In this document: in pieces, positions 36,607 to 64,000 of the stretch
How the letters are laid out: the number at the start of each line of letters is the position of its first letter
How positions within the stretch are numbered: the stretch's first letter is position 1
DNA from: Eunapius fragilis
Lineage: Eukaryota > Porifera > Demospongiae > Spongillida > Spongillidae
NCBI GenBank assembly: GCA_963681505.1
Contig: OY811980.1
Location: forward strand, 1,181,542-1,245,541
Length of the DNA stretch: 64,000 nt
Direction of reading: 5' to 3'
Made by a program: the position numbers and the translations under genes
Notes under the pieces: model-generated
The model's database searches: none
The model's input: only the letters and a program-made list of their open reading frames with translations
Told to the model about the DNA's origin: nothing

Positions 36607-37614
36607 ATGTGGACCATGGAAGCTTTCGACAACGCTACGAATGGCAGCGGCATTTGCGAGTTCACTTCTGAGTCGCCTCTACCAGCATGGCTGATAGCTA
36701 TGCAGGCCGTGTTTCTTATCCCGTCGCTTGTGGCATTGTTGCTTCTCAACGTCTCCTATACGGTGGTCGTGATTATTCACAAAGCGCTCCATCAGAAGGA
36801 GATGATGATAAGTCTAGTTTTCACCATTTCAAACATTTGTACCGGCGTCGTTACGTACATCCCTAGCATTGCTTCGGTGATCAACGGAGGGTGGCCATTT
36901 GGAAAATCAGTCTGCTACGCCGTTGGAACGGCAAGTCTTTTCCTTGCGTTCTTGAGGTTCACGTTCATATTGGCATTCACTGTCGACCGATTCACTGCAG
37001 TCATGTATCCGTTTCAATATCCACAGCACAGTGCAAAGGTCGCAGCAATAATCTTCATCGTTGGCGGTATGTACAGTGCGGTTATATCGCTTCTACTCAA
37101 TGCAAACCTCTTTGGCTGTTACAACCTTGATAAGCCTTTTCAAATATGTCACTTTGTAATAAACTGTACCAAAACGGTGTGTTATATATTCATCGTTATC
37201 CAAGTGCTCGTGATCGTCTCCTTCGGCATTGTGGTGCCATTTGTACTTAATATTGTGATGTTCTACCAGTCCAAAAAGCTTCAAACGACAATCGCTTGCG
37301 GAACGATCGAAAATGATCCTGGAACCGCGATAGATAGACGCGGAAATGTCAGAACAACGGTGACGATCGCGTTACTCCTTGCTTCAACTGTAGGCCTTAC
37401 GTCACCATACGTCATTTTCACCGCCGCAGAGAAGACACTGCATTTTGATGGCACCGCCTACTTCCTGATTGGTGCAATGACTGGTGATTTGTATGCCCTC
37501 GTCCCCATCGCTGACACCCTCGTTATTTGGAGGAATAGAGACGCCTATGAATGCACCGTGTCCTTATGCAAGAAAATCTTCAAAGTGGTCACTAATGCTA
37601 AGTTTGAATTTTAA
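36607..37614 (+). CDS. Rhodopsin-like 7TM receptor, copy 1
   Basis: Intact single-exon 335-residue seven-helix protein in the plasma membrane. It has a short N-terminus with N-glycosylation sites (NATNGS). TM1 is about 29-52 (conserved LLN), TM2 65-88, TM3 97-122 with the preceding Cys, TM4 137-160, TM5 183-207, TM6 240-262 and TM7 272-297. The DRY motif is DRF, followed by TAVMYPFQY, so class A identity is clear. It is divergent elsewhere: the TM2 Asp and TM4 Trp are not at the usual places, TM6 has GLTSPY instead of CWxP, and TM7 has VPIADTLV instead of NPxxY. The ligand cannot be guessed. The better start may be the Met at codon 4 (36616), which aligns with copy 2. A tandem paralogue lies 5.27 kb downstream. 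Confidence 0.88.
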   Translation: MWTMEAFDNATNGSGICEFTSESPLPAWLIAMQAVFLIPSLVALLLLNVSYTVVVIIHKALHQKEMMISLVFTISNICTGVVTYIPSIASVINGGWPFGKSVCYAVGTASLFLAFLRFTFILAFTVDRFTAVMYPFQYPQHSAKVAAIIFIVGGMYSAVISLLLNANLFGCYNLDKPFQICHFVINCTKTVCYIFIVIQVLVIVSFGIVVPFVLNIVMFYQSKKLQTTIACGTIENDPGTAIDRRGNVRTTVTIALLLASTVGLTSPYVIFTAAEKTLHFDGTAYFLIGAMTGDLYALVPIADTLVIWRNRDAYECTVSLCKKIFKVVTNAKFEF

Positions 37615-41876: not shown

Positions 41877-42863
41877 TTGTTCGACATGGAAACTTTCGAC
41901 AACGCTACGAATGGCAGCGGCATTTGCGAGTTCACTTCTGGCGGGTCGCCGCTATCAGCATGGCTGATAGCTATCCAGGCAGTGTTTCTGATCCTGTCGC
42001 TTCTGGCATTGTTGCTTCTCAACGTCTCCTATACGGTGGTCGTGATTATTCACAAAGCGCTCCATCAGAAGGAGATGATGATAAATCTAGTTTTCACCAT
42101 TTCAAACATTTGTACCGGCGTCGTTGGGTACATCCCTGGCATTGCTTCGGTGATCAACGGAGGGTGGCCATTTGGAAAATCATTCTGCTACGCCGTTGGA
42201 ACGATTAATCTTTTCCTCGCGTTCTTGAGGTTCACGTTCATATTGGCATTCACTGTCGACCGATTCACTGCAGTCATGTATCCGTTTCAATATCCACAGC
42301 ACAGTGCAAAGGTCGCAGCAATAATCTTCATCGTTGGCGGTATGTACAGTGCGGTTATATCGCTTCTACTCAATGCAAACCTCTTCGGCTGTTATAACCT
42401 TGATAAGCCTTTTCAAGTATGTAACTTCGTAATAAACTGTACCAAAACGGTGTGTTATATATTCATCGTTATCCAAGTGCTCGTGATCGTCTCCTTCGGC
42501 ATTGTGGCGCCATTTGTACTTAATATTGTGATGTTCTACAAATCCAAAAGGCTTCAAACGACAATCGCTTGCGGAACGATCGAAAATTTAAATCCTGGAA
42601 CCGCGATAGATAGACGTCGGAACATCAGAACAACGGTGACGATCGCGTTACTCCTTGCTTCAACTGTAGGCCTTACGTCACCATACGTCGTGTTCATCGC
42701 CGCACTGCATTTTGATGGCACCGCCTACTTGCTGATCGGCACAACGATTGGTGATTTGTATGCCCTCGTCCCCATCGCTGACACCCTCGTTGTTTGGAGG
42801 AATAGAGACGTCTATGAATGCGCCGTGTCCTTATGCAAGAAAATATTCAAAGCGGTGCACTAA
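41877..42863 (+). CDS. Rhodopsin-like 7TM receptor, copy 2
   Basis: Intact single-exon 328-residue paralogue of the receptor at 36607. It has the same seven helices, DRF motif, pre-TM3 Cys, GLTSPY in TM6 and VPIADTLV in TM7. Differences include an extra Gly at the N-terminus (EFTSGGSPL), one inserted residue in loop 3 (IENLNPGTAI), loss of four residues before TM7 (EKT region) and a shorter C-terminal tail ending KAVH. The start could be at 41877 or the second Met at 41886; the latter aligns with copy 1. Coding identity to copy 1 is high by eye, and neither copy has a stop or frameshift, which suggests both are maintained or the duplication is recent. Confidence 0.88.
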   Translation: MFDMETFDNATNGSGICEFTSGGSPLSAWLIAIQAVFLILSLLALLLLNVSYTVVVIIHKALHQKEMMINLVFTISNICTGVVGYIPGIASVINGGWPFGKSFCYAVGTINLFLAFLRFTFILAFTVDRFTAVMYPFQYPQHSAKVAAIIFIVGGMYSAVISLLLNANLFGCYNLDKPFQVCNFVINCTKTVCYIFIVIQVLVIVSFGIVAPFVLNIVMFYKSKRLQTTIACGTIENLNPGTAIDRRRNIRTTVTIALLLASTVGLTSPYVVFIAALHFDGTAYLLIGTTIGDLYALVPIADTLVVWRNRDVYECAVSLCKKIFKAVH

Positions 42864-56775: not shown

Positions 56776-57309
56776 CAGAGATACACGCCCATCCACTAGC
56801 ATTACAGGCATCACCTTCATCCTGTGTTGTTTTTCCCCCTATCAGCTATAGACCCTAAGATCAAACTTGCTTCTAGGATTTCGGCTGAGTTAAGCAGATA
56901 ATTTTTTTTCTGTGTACTGAACGTATAGATATTTAATGGTATAATACAATATAATAAGTACAACAATATACTTAGAGTTATAAACCCCTAGCTAAAAGTC
57001 ACTACATGGAGGGGAAATGAATAATTATCTTATAAACATTATTTATACTGCCTAAAATTATTAATAAAAATCTATTACATACATTTATTAATGATATTGA
57101 GCAAGAAACAATAGTACACCACTCACAAGAACAAAGAACTAACTACACTACACTACACTACACACAAATGTTCTAAAGAACTACTACCCTGCCCATGATG
57201 GCCCTGGATATTGATCTAACTAGAACCATGTTCATTCTGCTGTAGATATCTTTTATTAATATAATGAATACACGAATATACGGCAGTAAGGTAATTAAAT
57301 GCACCGTAC

Positions 57310-58105
57310 TATAGGTACTAGACAGGGACAAAACACCTGGAGAGGATGGCTGTGGCATTGGCTCTAACTAGGTTGAGGTTCAGCCTCCCATATAAGGCAG
57401 CTAGGACCTCAGCCTTAGCCCTGTTGGAGCTAGTTGCAAGGCGAGAAGCCAGAAGAGAAAAAGACTCCATTGCTTCTGTCCCCTAAGCACCATATGCCTC
57501 AACCACCATGGGGACGCAAACCCACCCTAGCTCCTTGCATTTGACATCATTTTCTTCATGCTTCCTTTCCTCGGTAGCTCTGGCAGCCTGACCTGCTCCG
57601 AATCCCGCTTCAAGTAAAATATTGGAGTTAAGCAGTGACGTCACAGACAAGTCAAAGGCTGCTGGCTTACCCAAAGACCAGTTGGGTATTAGGATGTCTG
57701 CAGGGCGAGTGTGGCTATGGTCTTTGGAGAAGTTACTTCCTGCCTCCACCTTAACACTCAGGTGGGCCCTGCGACAGGTCTCAGCAAGGGTGTCACGTAG
57801 TTTATTGTGGCGGGTTACTACATCTCCACCACGCTTGCAGGTGAGTGCATGATGGCCAAGGGGATCAAGTACTTTCCCAGGACACAGAGGACAAATTGAG
57901 CCACATGAGGTGTCTAGGCCCAGCCACCACTTAATGGCCACCTGAACTCTGAAGGCTGGAGATGAAGGCCTAGCCCCTCGGAGGGAATGACTGACACCCA
58001 AGATGCAGCGTGAGGGGAGGAGACAGAGAGAAGGCGTGCTCTATTTGCGGCAGAAGATTGCTCATAGAGTGTATTATTATTACTGAACACATTCTTGTGT
58101 TCCAC
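57310..58105 (-). pseudogene. Non-LTR retrotransposon ORF2 C-terminal fragment
   Basis: It reads LLSVSSPHAASWVSVIPSEG, LHLQPSEF, then after one frameshift VAIKWWLGLDTS, CPLCPGKVLDPLGHHALTC (zinc-knuckle-like C-x2-C…H…C), RGGDVVTRHNKLRDTLAE and NILLEAGFGAGQAA, and finally ASRLATSSNRAKAEVLAALY and LVRANATAILSRC. This is the well-known C-terminal block of invertebrate non-LTR elements. A TAG at about 57484 interrupts YGA*GTEA, where relatives have Trp. It is 5'-truncated and dead. Confidence 0.85.
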
Positions 58106-58472
58106 ATCGTGATGAAATTATTATTATTTTTTTTATAACAACTTTGTCAACATTTGACTGCTTCCAAAGTGCACTTAAAAGCATTAAGCATTGAGAAAGC
58201 CTTGAGCAGTGAAGGTTATTATGTATTCTCTGGCATACAAATTTATGAACGGCTGACCAGTTTATTAAACTGGTTTATAGATTTGAATAATTGTCTTCAC
58301 TTTATATATTTACCTTTAGTGGTGATGTGCTAACCCTAAGCTGCAATAATGGACATCTTTTTCCAAGACCAAACAGAGCCAATTAGAACTTGTATAATTC
58401 CTTCCTCTCGATACGGTATATTGCACAAGCAAGGGCCTGGGCCCGAGAACAATAGAAATTATCAACCTAAAC

Positions 58473-60359
58473 ATGGCTACCCCTCCTTCTCTCAACCTAT
58501 CTGTGGTCGGGAAACTGAACGTATACGACAAAGACGGCGCCCAAGTAGCGTTTGAAAATTTCTACACGCATCAAAAAGCCATCATCGTTTTTGTACGGGT
58601 GAGTGGCTGGAATGTATGCATATGACGTAGGTAGGCTACTGGATCACCAGTATGCCCTTGTGTTTTTCCGTCGTACACATACTTCCTCTTAATATTTCCC
58701 CGCCTCTTCTTTAATACTCTCCCACACCTTTCCCACCTCTTCTTTAATACTCTCCCACACCTTCCCCACCTCTTCTTTAATACTCTCCTACACCTTCCCC
58801 ACCTCTTCTTTAATACTCTCCCACACCTTCCCCACCTCTTCTTTAATACTCTCCCACACCTTCCCCACCTCTTCTTTAATACTCTCCCACACCTTCCCCA
58901 CCTCTTCTTTAATACTCTCCCACACCTTCCCCACCTCTTCTTTAATACTCTCCCACACCTTTCCCACCTCTTCTTTAATACTCTCCCACACCTTCCCCAC
59001 CTCTTCTTTAATACTCTCCCACACCTTCCCCACCTCTTCTTTAATACTCTCCCACACCTTCCCCACCTCTTCTTTAATACTCTCCCACACCTTCCCCACC
59101 TCTTCTTTAATACTGTCCCACATCTTCCCCACCTCTTCTTTAATACTCTCCCACACCTTCCCCACCTCTTCTTTAATACTCTCCCACACCTTCCCCACCT
59201 CTTCTTTAATACTCTCCTACACCTTCCCCACCTCTTCTTTAATACTCTCCCACACCTTCCCCACCTCTTCTTTAATACTCTCCCACACCTTCCCCACCTT
59301 CTTTAATACTCTCCCACATCATCCCCACCTCTTCTTTAATACACTCCCACACCTTCCCCACCTCTTCTTTAATACTCTCCCACACCATCCCCACCTCTTC
59401 TTTAATACTCTCCCACACCTTCCCCACCTCTTCTTTAATACTCTCCCACACCTTCCCCACCTCTTCTTTAATACTCTCCTACACCTTCCCCGCCTCTTCT
59501 TTAATACTCTCCCACACCTTCCCCACCTCTTCTTTAATACTCTCCCACACCTTCCCCACCTCTTCTTTAATACTCTCCCACACCTTCCCCACCTCTTCTT
59601 TAATACTCTCCCACACCTTCCCCACCTCTTCTTTAATACTCTCCCACACCTTCCCCACCTCTTCTTTAATACTCTCCCACACCTTCCCCACCTCTTCTTT
59701 AATACTCTCCCACACCTTCCCCACCTCTTCTTTAATACTCTCCCACACCTTCCTCACCTCTTCTTTAATACTCTCCCACATCTTCCCCACCTCTTCTTTA
59801 ATACTCTCCCACACCTTCCCCCACTGATGACACACCATTATGCAGCACTTCCTTTGATATATTTGCCAAGAGTACGTGCAAGGTAAGATTGCAATGCAGG
59901 TCTCGATCCAGTATGTTACTGTTACGTCTCCAATTACAAGACTTGGCCAAGATACCGGCAGGCTTGCTTCAAGTATGTCTTGGGGGGAAGGGGGGGGGGG
60001 GGGGGGGTGTTGATGATTGAGATGGTTTTTTTCAGCATGCAAAGTAGTGAGGAGCATTAAATGGGGTTATTTTGCCATGAAGCTAACCAATTTTCCGGTT
60101 CAAAGACATGGCAGTTGCAAACAGAATGGTTGACATGCAGTGAGGTCATTCTCCCTGCATGCCCACTTAACTCTGTGGGAGTGTGTCCACTAAAGGCTCT
60201 GCTGATTGATGTAATTGAGTTCAGCCAAAGCCATGCGTGTCTTATTGGCTCCTTTGTTATTGGTGCTCGTTCAGCCATGATGGTAGTAACCATGGTAATA
60301 CAGTAATTGGGTCAACAATGTGCAGTGTGGTGTCATACACCAGGTCCTTCGTGTGTGCA

Positions 60360-60393
<34 letters not shown>

Positions 60394-60464
60394 TGCATGC
60401 ATGTGTGTATGCTGTTTGTGTGTGTGTGTGTGTGTGTGTGCATGTGTGTGTGCATGTGTGTATG

Positions 60465-60505
<41 letters not shown>

Positions 60506-61001
60506 CTGCAGATTGATGTGTTGTGCTGGCGATTGACAATGCCTTTCCCCACACATTAGGAGGCTTCTGTGCAGATGGTTATCATTGGATGTGCACCCCA
60601 TAAATTCATCAAGGTCTGTCCTTCTGCCTGCGGTAGAAGTGTGGCCTCTCTATTGAAGTGCTAATGATAAAGCGTGCTTCATCTTGGGGGGGGGGGGGGG
60701 GGGGGGGGGGAGTGAGGAGGGTGTGGAAGGGTCCTTGGACATAGCCCTCAGAGTCACATAAATTGCCACCTTAAAAAAGTTTAGAACTGCAACTTTTGCC
60801 CTCCTTCTCCACGAAACCCGTTCCATCCCATATTTGGATCACTGCTCGAATTGTTTCCTTCATCCCACACACCACTTCTGCACTCACAATATGGTGTAAC
60901 CTTTATTTTGGGTCAAAGTTGTGTCATCTAAGTGCAATATGGAATCTGTGTTCCTAATGCAAGAGACATCTTTCGGGTGTCACAAAATCTTATGATATCT
61001 C

Positions 61002-61032
<31 letters not shown>

Positions 61033-62274
61033 AAATAAAACATGAACATTAGTTCCATGGGTTGACAATGTCTTATTGTTCACCTTGTTGGGTTGGAATT
61101 GTTCGGATGGCGTGAAGAATTAAGTGTTCACATTTGACTCTCCCTGTCCAGCATGTTATGTGTGACGATGGAGGTAATGGCAGGGGGGTAATTATTGTAT
61201 AGTGCGTACGTACATTGTGTCAAGGTTTTTTGTATGGTCAGCGTTTTGTGATTTTGTAAGGAGCAGGTCGTGCTGGTAGCATTGGTACCACCAAGATTTT
61301 TCATTTGCACTTATGTGCGTGTTCATCTGTCATTGAGTTTTTTTTTAGTGGTGTAATTATCAATAATTGTATGCTGAAACGAGCTCTTTGATCAACATGC
61401 ATGTCTGCTTACCCAGCACACCATGTCCATTGGGGTATCTGTGTGCACAAATTTTAACTCTATCATTTCTTTTTAACAGGGTTTCATCACTAAAACTGGT
61501 AAGGGATCAATGAATCAATCAGTGTGTTCGCTTTATAGCTGGAATTCTGTTGTTTATTAATAATACAAAATATTGCTAATAACCATACACGCACACACAC
61601 ACATATACACACACAAATATATGCATACACAACTTAATTGTGCTGCTTGCATGCATGTGTGTGTGCGTGTATGCATGCATGCATGTATGTATGTGTGTAT
61701 GCATGCATGCATGTATATGTGTGCGTGTATGCATGCATGCATGTATGTGTGTGCGTCCATGCATGCATGTGTGTGTGTGTGTGTCCACGGGTGTGTGTTT
61801 TATTACAACCGTGGTGGAAGATTAGTGCTGAAGCTGGCACCACTCTGGTGAAATGTGATCCATTGTGTTTCCATTGCAATCGCAATCATATCGGTACACT
61901 GTGGTTTTGGGGCCTTTCTCAACGTCCCAATACAGCTTCATTTTCCATAGGTTGCCGAGTATCTTCTTGACCCCTCCCCCCCCCTCCCCTATCAGTTTTG
62001 ATTTCTTTCTCCCTGTTATTCATAACTGTGGCCAGTTGAGTTCTCTCTTCTCTTGCTACCTCTCTCATCCCTTCCTTCCTTCTTTCCTCACTCACTCACT
62101 TACTCATTCTGAAGTGCTTTCTTGAGATGGCATTGAGGCAGTTACATATGGTTAAATGAAGCATGGAGCAGTCATGTTCCTCTGCTTTATAGGATGTCCT
62201 TTTGAGGTGTACTGTGACCCAGACCTGGAGGTGTACAAGGCCCTAGGCATGCTGCGAACCTGGAAGACGGGTGC

Positions 62275-62319
<45 letters not shown>

Positions 62320-62916
62320 GTGTTGTGTGTGTGTATGTGTGTGTGTGCATGTTTTTGCGTATACATGTACATGTTTATGTGTATGCAGGAGTGTGGGGGT
62401 GCAGGAATGAGATTGTCTTCTAACAGAAAATACCTTTTGATATCATGTTACAAAAATGGGACATGAGGCTGTATAACTGTGTGTGCAGACAGATTGGGTA
62501 TCAGGTTCTCCCGCCACAGGCAGTGAACATGTAAAGTCATCAGCACTGTCAGGTGCCTTGAGATCCACGTGGGAGGCATTGAAGGGCCTTGAGATGCAGG
62601 GAGATGTCAAACAGCAGGGTGGACAGTTTGTAATTGGACCAGGTTTGTTCTCCTTTGCTGCCTTTTACATAAATGGTGAATCATCCAGTGAATCATCAAT
62701 TGTTTTTTTATTATTAATTTTAAACAATAATTATTATAATAGGGGTTATAGTTTGTGGGATGTTTGTTTTTGTACGTGTGCATTTGAGCAGTACCTTTTT
62801 TTTTTCATCGCTTAGGGGAAGAGATTCACTATGCCCATCTTGACACCGCTTCAACTGATCATGCACCAATTAACACCGTCCTGGAGGCAGCTGGTGTGAA
62901 AAAGATTGTGTTCTAA
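58473..62916 (+). CDS. PRXL2C: PRXL2C/AAED1-like thioredoxin-fold protein, predicted selenoprotein
   Basis: AhpC/TSA-like thiol redox protein of the PRXL2 (SelU) group. Exons: 58473-58598, 59846-59882, 59941-59972, 60560-60613, 61480-61498 (19 nt), 62193-62276, 62493-62642, 62816-62916. They total 603 nt (200 residues plus TAA), all in phase. Exon 1 ends AIIVFVR and exon 2 reads HFL-TGA-YICQEYVQ, where relatives have HFLCYICKEYV. The TGA (59855-59857) therefore replaces the first Cys of CxxC and would be selenocysteine. Then come DLAKIPAGLLQ, QMVIIGCAPHKFIK, CPFEVYCDPDLEVYKALGM, HVKSSALSGALRSTWEAL, GDVKQQGGQFVIGPG and HAPINTVLEAAGV, all family blocks. A SECIS follows 30 nt after the stop. Conventional annotation would truncate or split this gene at the TGA. 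Confidence 0.93.
58685..59823. repeat. 33-bp minisatellite in intron 1 of the selenoprotein gene
   Basis: About 34 copies of TCTTCTTTAATACTCTCCCA+CACCTTCCCCACC. They end about 22 bp before exon 2, which carries the Sec codon. On the minus strand the unit is 11 codons without stops (GKVWESIKEEV repeated), which explains the long antisense open frames. Confidence 0.95.
60354..60495. repeat. (TG)n microsatellite in selenoprotein gene intron 3
   Basis: TG repeat with CATG and GTATGC interruptions. Confidence 0.93.
60687..60711. repeat. Poly-G run
   Basis: About 24 consecutive G in intron 4 of the selenoprotein gene. Confidence 0.9.
61645..61795. repeat. ATGC/TG simple repeat, selenoprotein gene intron 5
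   Basis: GTGTATGCATGCATGCATG units in short higher-order repeats. Confidence 0.9.
62277..62350. repeat. (TG)n microsatellite directly at the donor of exon 6
   Basis: The exon ends at 62276 (GGTGCAG) and the intron begins GTGTGTGTGT, so the donor is the first unit of the repeat. Confidence 0.93.
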
Positions 62917-63412
62917 TGCACTTTTTTTTTGTATGATCACGCTTATTTGCGCACGTTTTGAAGCCTTGGGCCGCAATTCTCTAGTTGGAGAAAGGCCTTT
63001 GGCTGATTCCTTGTTTGCGCGGTAGGCGTGGTGGTTTTTTTCTCTAAATGTTCGACTTCACCTTTTACGGTTGTACGACATTCCGAAGTTAGTAAATAGT
63101 GAGAATCAAGCCTGCGATAACACAAAGGAGTGCGAAGAGGAAGTGCTGTGCGTGAAGCTACCGATACCTTAGGATTTTGTTATTGTAGTTTTTTTTAGGA
63201 TAGTCGGTTCAACCGACTTTTTGGGGGGCCGCACTCCGATCTTAGCAGAAAGTGTCGCCCTGAGGGCAACTGGCCGACCGATCGATCTGAGAGCACTCTA
63301 CGTTGACTGGACAAGACGCGCCGACCAAGCATGCCGATCTAACCGACCATATAATAACTACTTGTGACAAGAAGAAGGGAAAAATACAAACGAAACAGGA
63401 CAAGACGAACAT
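62917..63412. promoter_or_regulatory. 3' UTR of the selenoprotein gene and CDC14 promoter region
   Basis: Only 496 bp separates the TAA from the CDC14 ATG on the same strand. The first 110 bp hold the SECIS; the rest must contain the polyadenylation signal and the CDC14 promoter. No AATAAA is seen before 63487, which lies inside CDC14 intron 1, so the upstream transcript may end at a variant signal. Confidence 0.5.
62947..63022 (+). promoter_or_regulatory. SECIS element, form 2
   Basis: A hairpin in the 3' UTR. Helix I pairs 62947-62953 (TTGCGCA) with 63016-63022. The non-Watson-Crick quartet is TGA (62959-62961) against GA (63005-63006). Helix II pairs 62962-62972 (AGCCTTGGGCC) with 62994-63004 (GGCCTTTGGCT), 11 positions with two T·T and one G·T. 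The conserved AA is at 62975-62976, 13 nt after the quartet. Helix III is TTCTC (62977-62981) with GAGAA (62988-62992) around the loop TAGTTG. Order and spacings fit a form-2 eukaryotic SECIS. The base before TGA is T rather than the usual A. By analogy with known SECIS elements it would recruit SECISBP2 to decode the UGA at 59855. Confidence 0.88.
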
Positions 63413-63880
63413 ATGGCGGACAAGGATGTAACGCTGTGCGAGTTTCTGGAAGGTACTGTGACTCCCTTCCCCCCAGCCCATTCCCAATAAAATGGTAGTC
63501 TTAAAAGGCTCTCGGGCATGATTTAGTTTCCCCTACAACATGGCACGTTTCATCTCTTTCGCGGGGCGGGAGGGCGGCACCACCCCCATCATTTGCACCG
63601 TTTTAATTAATTCTACTGATTTTTTTTTTCTTTCCCTTCTGTCACATCTTAGACCGCCTTTACTTTGCCACGCTACGATCTAAACCACGTACCACGTCGT
63701 CACATCATTACTTCTGTACAGACGATGAATTCACATACGAGAAGTAAGTTTGAGCCTCGCGGCACACAGCCCGCAATTACTTATCACCTTTCGTGCCCGA
63801 TCAGCTTTTACGCTGACTTCGGACCACTGAACCTGGCAATGCTCTATCACTACTGTCAAAAAGTTAACAAAAAACTGAAA
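63413..63880 (+). CDS. CDC14: CDC14 dual-specificity phosphatase, 5' end (partial)
   Basis: Exons 63413-63452 ([13 protein letters not shown]), 63653-63743 ([20 protein letters not shown]…DDEFTYE) and 63805-63880 ([20 protein letters not shown]) join in phase. They match the N-terminal non-catalytic DSP domain of CDC14 (family pattern DRLYFATLR…[18 protein letters not shown]). The catalytic HCxxxxxR domain lies beyond the right edge. The last bases (63970-64000) follow an AG but do not continue in phase with the expected sequence, so exon 4 is probably outside the window. Confidence 0.93.
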
Positions 63881-64000
63881 GTAAGCGAGAAGGGTTATGA
63901 AAGTGGGTGGGTGGGGGTGGCATACTTGTGGCAGTGCATCTGTTCATAACCTTTGTCTTCCGTTCCCAGCTTGTTTGAGTATATGGGATGTATTGAACGA

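Follow-up and report, generated by a model that had tools for sequence, protein, structure and literature searches.

A predicted selenocysteine form of PRXL2C (AAED1), with a SECIS-like hairpin, in the sponge Eunapius fragilis

The branches of the PRXL2/SelU family go by two sets of names. SelU1 corresponds to PRXL2A and SelU3 to PRXL2B, and C9orf21 is another name of AAED1, or PRXL2C. Forms with selenocysteine (Sec) are described for SelU1/PRXL2A of fish and birds and for SelU3/PRXL2B of invertebrates, with cysteine (Cys) or Sec at the same position of a CxxC motif (PMC3473315, PMC3316567). SelU3, the prostamide synthase, is named there as the most abundant invertebrate group (PMC3473315), and all Sec-containing SelU proteins of a vertebrate analysis fall in SelU1 (PMC3316567). 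For the remaining branch, Jiang et al. (2012) describe a Sec protein of the C9orf21-like (SelU2) lineage in the placozoan Trichoplax adhaerens, presented there as the sole protein of its lineage to contain Sec (PMC3473315). We describe a sponge gene of this branch which, judged from its sequence, is very probably a working gene for a Sec form of PRXL2C (AAED1), a predicted selenoprotein. It lies in a stretch of 64,000 nucleotides from Eunapius fragilis (contig OY811980.1 of assembly GCA_963681505.1, positions 1,181,542 to 1,245,541), hereafter the window.

The sponge gene shares its branch, and its predicted use of Sec in an animal, with the Trichoplax SelU2/C9orf21-like protein (PMC3473315), and SelU1/PRXL2A and SelU3/PRXL2B belong to other branches. 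A Sec form of the PRXL2C branch is rare but already published for Trichoplax; in light of that report, the window gene extends a known kind and does not found a new one. The first-pass annotation of this DNA, made from the letters alone, had called such a form little or not described: "little" stands, and "not" gives way to the Trichoplax case of 2012 (PMC3473315). Under the names AAED1 or PRXL2C, no report of a Sec form was found in the open-licence PubMed Central literature. Beside vertebrate PRXL2C/AAED1, the likeness is plain in the active site, where the window's HFLUYIC aligns with an HFLCYIC-type motif and the in-frame TGA codon falls on the first Cys of CxxC, as the annotation had claimed. 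The vertebrate protein has Cys where Sec is predicted in the window, a longer N-terminus, and, at its C-terminus, a tail of some 10 residues for which the window protein has no counterpart.

The gene occupies 58473-62916 on the forward strand and comprises eight exons. Exon 1 (58473..58598, 126 nt, phase 0) begins with the start ATG and ends at a gtgagt donor. Exon 2 (59846..59882, 37 nt), between a cag acceptor and a gtaaga donor, encodes the active site, HFL-U-YICQEYVQ. Exons 3 to 7 follow at 59941..59972, 60560..60613, 61480..61498, 62193..62276, and 62520..62642, and exon 8 (62816..62916) closes with a TAA stop at 62914-62916. Read directly from the window, all seven introns run from GT to AG, and the spliced coding sequence of 576 nt specifies 191 residues up to the TAA without a frameshift or broken splice site. 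Only one in-frame stop interrupts it, at codon 46: the TGA at 59855-59857, predicted to encode Sec at the first CxxC position. The predicted Sec peptide reads HFL-U-YICQEYVQDLAK. The same direct read agrees with the first-pass annotation that the TGA sits in a 37-nt exon with AG and GT borders, and corrects its count of seven downstream exons to six, eight being the total. Because exon 2 is only 37 nt long, its omission breaks the frame, and skipping it in silico gives a frame shift and early stops. Intron 1 consists almost entirely of a 33-bp tandem repeat (58696-59821; 34 copies, 96% matches), leaving 24 bases between the repeat and exon 2.

The residue at the TGA position was compared across 136 PRXL2C-type proteins, mostly from vertebrates, among them P0036, a window open reading frame; 23 G protein-coupled receptor (GPCR) proteins were excluded. 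Of the 130 proteins where the pattern found the motif, 115 have Cys and 15 have Asp at the first position, and the second position is more variable (C/S/T/A). The remaining six comprise P0025 and P0027, which have Cys by eye, P0001, P0035, and P0036, which are without the region, and P0068, which was not placed. Conservation continues beyond the TGA. Over residues 47-191, identity to 14 PRXL2C-type proteins, taken from molluscs, echinoderms, vertebrates, and a hemichordate, is 43-54%, and P0001, an unnamed ENA protein, reaches 82% over 121 residues; the earlier statement that the downstream coding sequence stays in phase and conserved to a normal C-terminus is thus upheld. The invariant columns of a 21-row alignment that includes the window protein (D98, H121, K123, G129, Q149, G151, G157, P158, and G185) all lie after the TGA. 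The CxxC of the PRXL2B structure PDB 9us9 aligns to the window UxxC, and 9usa has Ser at both positions; the Ser/Ser form, set against the Cys/Cys form, fits a catalytic role for the UxxC/CxxC pair.

P0001 and P0035, both unnamed ENA proteins, start at a Met shortly past the predicted Sec position, and the start of P0001 corresponds to residue 71, the first Met of the window protein after the TGA. These starts are suggestive, and only suggestive, of further Sec forms that gene callers shortened at a stop there. For vertebrates, the expectation that gene callers miss such genes is borne out by figures of 11% of selenoprotein genes well annotated in Ensembl and 5% in GenBank (PMC12822975).

The Asp variants form a separate pattern. 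Nine of the 15 read DxxT, two DxxA, and four DxxC, so that the second Cys is often lost too (P0005, P0007, P0009, P0012, P0013, P0022, P0032, P0062, P0063, P0064, P0066, P0069, P0071, P0088, and P0095). All 10 named Asp-variant proteins come from molluscs: a chiton, Haliotis, Gigantopelta, clams, a mussel, and snails. The PRXL2C proteins of Solemya, Patella, and Lottia retain CxxC. From the sequences, Asp at the catalytic position looks like either a loss of the active site or a mimic of oxidised Cys.

Several lines of comparison support the placement of the window protein in the PRXL2C/AAED1 branch of PRXL2/SelU. It matches the Pfam family AhpC-TSA_2 (PF13911) at 81.6 bits against a cut-off of 27, with the (C/U)xxC motif present; the closest NCBIfam model, a SelL-related redox protein, stays below its cut-off (93.3 vs 120). 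A single-sequence search of about 5.8 billion proteins returned 38 relatives, 33 of them named, and 32 of the 33 are called PRXL2C/AAED1; the other is a "hypothetical protein" of Solemya. The named PRXL2C/AAED1 relatives come from echinoderms, molluscs, a hemichordate, and vertebrates. From a profile search for PRXL2C relatives, the best 120 of 500 were used. BLASTP identities of the window protein are 42-52% with the 14 PRXL2C-type proteins, the vertebrate ones among them spanning this same range, 26% with PRXL2B (the PDB 9us9 segment), and 23% with a PRXL2A sequence. A FastTree phylogeny of 17 rows, limited to the 14 PRXL2C-type proteins, the window protein, that one PRXL2A, and one PRXL2B, splits A and B from the 15 C-type rows, including the window, with a support of 0.993; the branching order inside the PRXL2C part is weakly supported. 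The assignment to the C branch proposed by the first-pass annotation therefore holds among the named relatives, and the small tree agrees. In prokaryote genomes, P0001 gave 24 pattern matches, none of which was confirmed as a relative.

A selenoprotein gene of this kind would be expected to carry a Sec insertion sequence (SECIS) element in its 3' untranslated region (UTR). The first-pass annotation had proposed a SECIS search as a check, and our own scan, which allowed any base before UGA, finds a SECIS-like hairpin of form 2 at 62949..63020 on the forward strand (-19.3 kcal/mol), with a core that departs from the usual [A/G]UGA. Helix I pairs GCGCA (62949-62953) with TGCGC (63016-63020). The core consists of a U at 62958 followed by the quartet, UGA at 62959-62961 against GAU at 63005-63007. 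Helix II pairs AGCC-UU-GGGCC with GGCCU-UU-GGCU, that is, 4 + 5 bp around a UU/UU internal loop. At the apex, GCAA contributes an unpaired AA (62975-62976) on the 5' side opposite a single A, beneath helix III, which has 6 bp and is capped by a 4-base loop. The core spans 62958-63007 and begins 42 nt past the stop codon and 479 nt past the UGA in the mRNA. The hairpin thus has in common with eukaryotic form-2 elements the UGA/GAU quartet, helix II, the unpaired AA below helix III, and a place in the 3' UTR; in form 2, the AAR motif lies in a terminal bulge (PMC2746813), which the window hairpin resembles. When 496 nt of 3' UTR were shuffled with dinucleotides preserved, 33 of 3000 shuffles gave a candidate under loose criteria, 12 of these with [A/G]UGA, and none of 3000 reached strict criteria set near the observed values.

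Several observations weigh against taking this hairpin for a SECIS element and, with it, against a selenoprotein. A U precedes the quartet (UUGA), outside the [A/G]UGA rule. Eukaryotic elements are described as having AU, rarely GU, at this place (PMC11227280), and GUGA is reported in 12 of 21 sponge elements (PMC3473315). A scan of 62900-63700 for [A/G]UGA-core elements gave none, and a looser scan also returns weak GUGA candidates at 62896 (-10.0 and -6.4 kcal/mol), which overlaps the end of the PRXL2C coding sequence, and at 63152 (-2.9). Applied to both strands of the 64-kb window, the loose scan gives four distinct sites, the PRXL2C hairpin included. The strict shuffle threshold was chosen after the element had been seen, and the folding energy of the hairpin lies only 2.1 standard deviations below that of shuffles, 30 of 1000 being at least as stable. 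The Rfam model SECIS_1 (RF00031) has no match in 57000-64000 or in 62917-63100 at E<=10, and nothing over its cut-off genome-wide (134 of 3341 candidates scored). Because the model passes its cut-off nowhere else in the genome either, its silence at the hairpin is weak evidence. Two features separate the hairpin from eukaryotic form-2 elements, the U before the quartet and the lack of a SECIS_1 match, and because of that U we file it as SECIS-like only: it resembles a form-2 SECIS but is not proven to be one.

Two other SECIS-like hairpins in the genome, L007 (GUGA, about 1501-1572) and L008 (AUGA, about 1501-1570), lie below the Rfam cut-off. By eye, no selenoprotein exon was recognised in the 1.6 kb up to and including them, and without a recognised host exon they are not counted as support. 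Rfam models of the mir-297/mir-3149 type also matched in 57000-64000, all under their gathering thresholds and for the most part within simple repeats of GT/TGCA; these matches were disregarded.

The first-pass annotation had also made its proposal depend on Sec machinery in the genome, and the tRNA part of that machinery is present. In the assembly (219 Mb, 24 contigs), a tRNA-Sec gene scores 73.7 bits, where the gathering score is 47, and ARAGORN assigns it the anticodon TCA. Against giving this score much weight, the same model matches all 14 prokaryote and archaeal control genomes, five of them over the cut-off; for this reason, the ARAGORN structure and anticodon outweigh the bare match.

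A functional selenoprotein is the likeliest explanation of the locus, because the gene model, the TGA at the motif Cys, the kinship with PRXL2C, the SECIS-like hairpin, and the tRNA-Sec gene all fit it; 3 other explanations have to be weighed. The codon could be TGT or TGC in truth, misread through a one-base sequencing or assembly error in an ordinary Cys PRXL2C. A single assembly copy stands behind the TGA, a change of one base would make it encode Cys, the residue that relatives most often have at this position; the form-2 SECIS-like hairpin in the 3' UTR would, however, be useless to a Cys gene, and P0001 and P0035 begin as if a stop stood at that place in them too, which is suggestive only. 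We give such an error a very small chance. Decay or recent loss is similarly improbable. The TGA would then be a true stop that leaves a stub of 45 residues, or the SECIS would have been worn out by the U before its quartet, and the core base outside [A/G] and the failure of Rfam to recognise the element speak for this reading. Yet the 576-nt coding sequence is free of further stops and of frameshifts, its splice sites are all intact, and every invariant column of the 21-row alignment lies downstream of the supposed stop.

Splicing offers one in-frame way around the TGA. An AG acceptor exists within exon 2, and an exon starting at 59873 would keep the frame. The resulting protein would be without HFLUYICQE, the whole active site and a catalytic loop retained in the aligned PRXL2C relatives, whereas splicing to the acceptor further upstream, at 59846, brings back precisely the residues found in the relatives. 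Use of the internal AG in place of Sec insertion thus seems extremely improbable.

On the preferred reading, a functional selenoprotein, we infer that the gene is transcribed, that Sec is inserted at the UGA, and that the UUGA hairpin acts as the SECIS. The UGA at codon 46 would be decoded as Sec by Sec-tRNA(UCA) under the guidance of the 3' UTR hairpin. The product would be a PRXL2/SelU-family redox protein with a thioredoxin fold, in which Sec stands in for the reactive Cys of CxxC and carries out peroxide or disulfide chemistry. By analogy with PRXL2 relatives, from which this chemistry is carried over, the selenol would be oxidised by peroxide or another oxidised substrate, the Cys that ends UxxC, three positions later, would resolve the oxidised Sec, and the pair would then be recycled by cellular thiols. 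We consider it somewhat likely that the UUGA core is functional, in which case the SECIS-binding protein of the host would tolerate a third base besides A and G. If so, searches built on [A/G]UGA would miss selenoproteins with UUGA cores, and an active core of this type would widen the sequence rule for SECIS finding; no description of a UUGA-core SECIS in selenoproteins was found in the open-licence PubMed Central literature.

With the sponge gene, the PRXL2C branch apparently has at least two cases of selenium use, so that the Cys of vertebrates may derive from an ancestral Sec. Sec here, Cys in vertebrates, and Asp in many molluscs make these enzymes a set in which to ask why a catalytic residue swaps.

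The next gene downstream of PRXL2C, also on the forward strand, encodes a CDC14 phosphatase, whose first exons lie at 63413..63880 (CDC14A 9rib_A, E 6.1e-27; DSPn). Human PRXL2C likewise adjoins a CDC14 gene, CDC14B, and the neighbourhood thus agrees with the PRXL2C assignment. Elsewhere in the window, two single-exon GPCR genes stand in tandem at 36607-37614 and 41877-42863 (P0039 and P0040), 89% identical over 97%. A search with the first of these GPCRs (36607-37611) returned 23 proteins: the two encoded in the window and 21 others, all without a name, at 45-61% identity.

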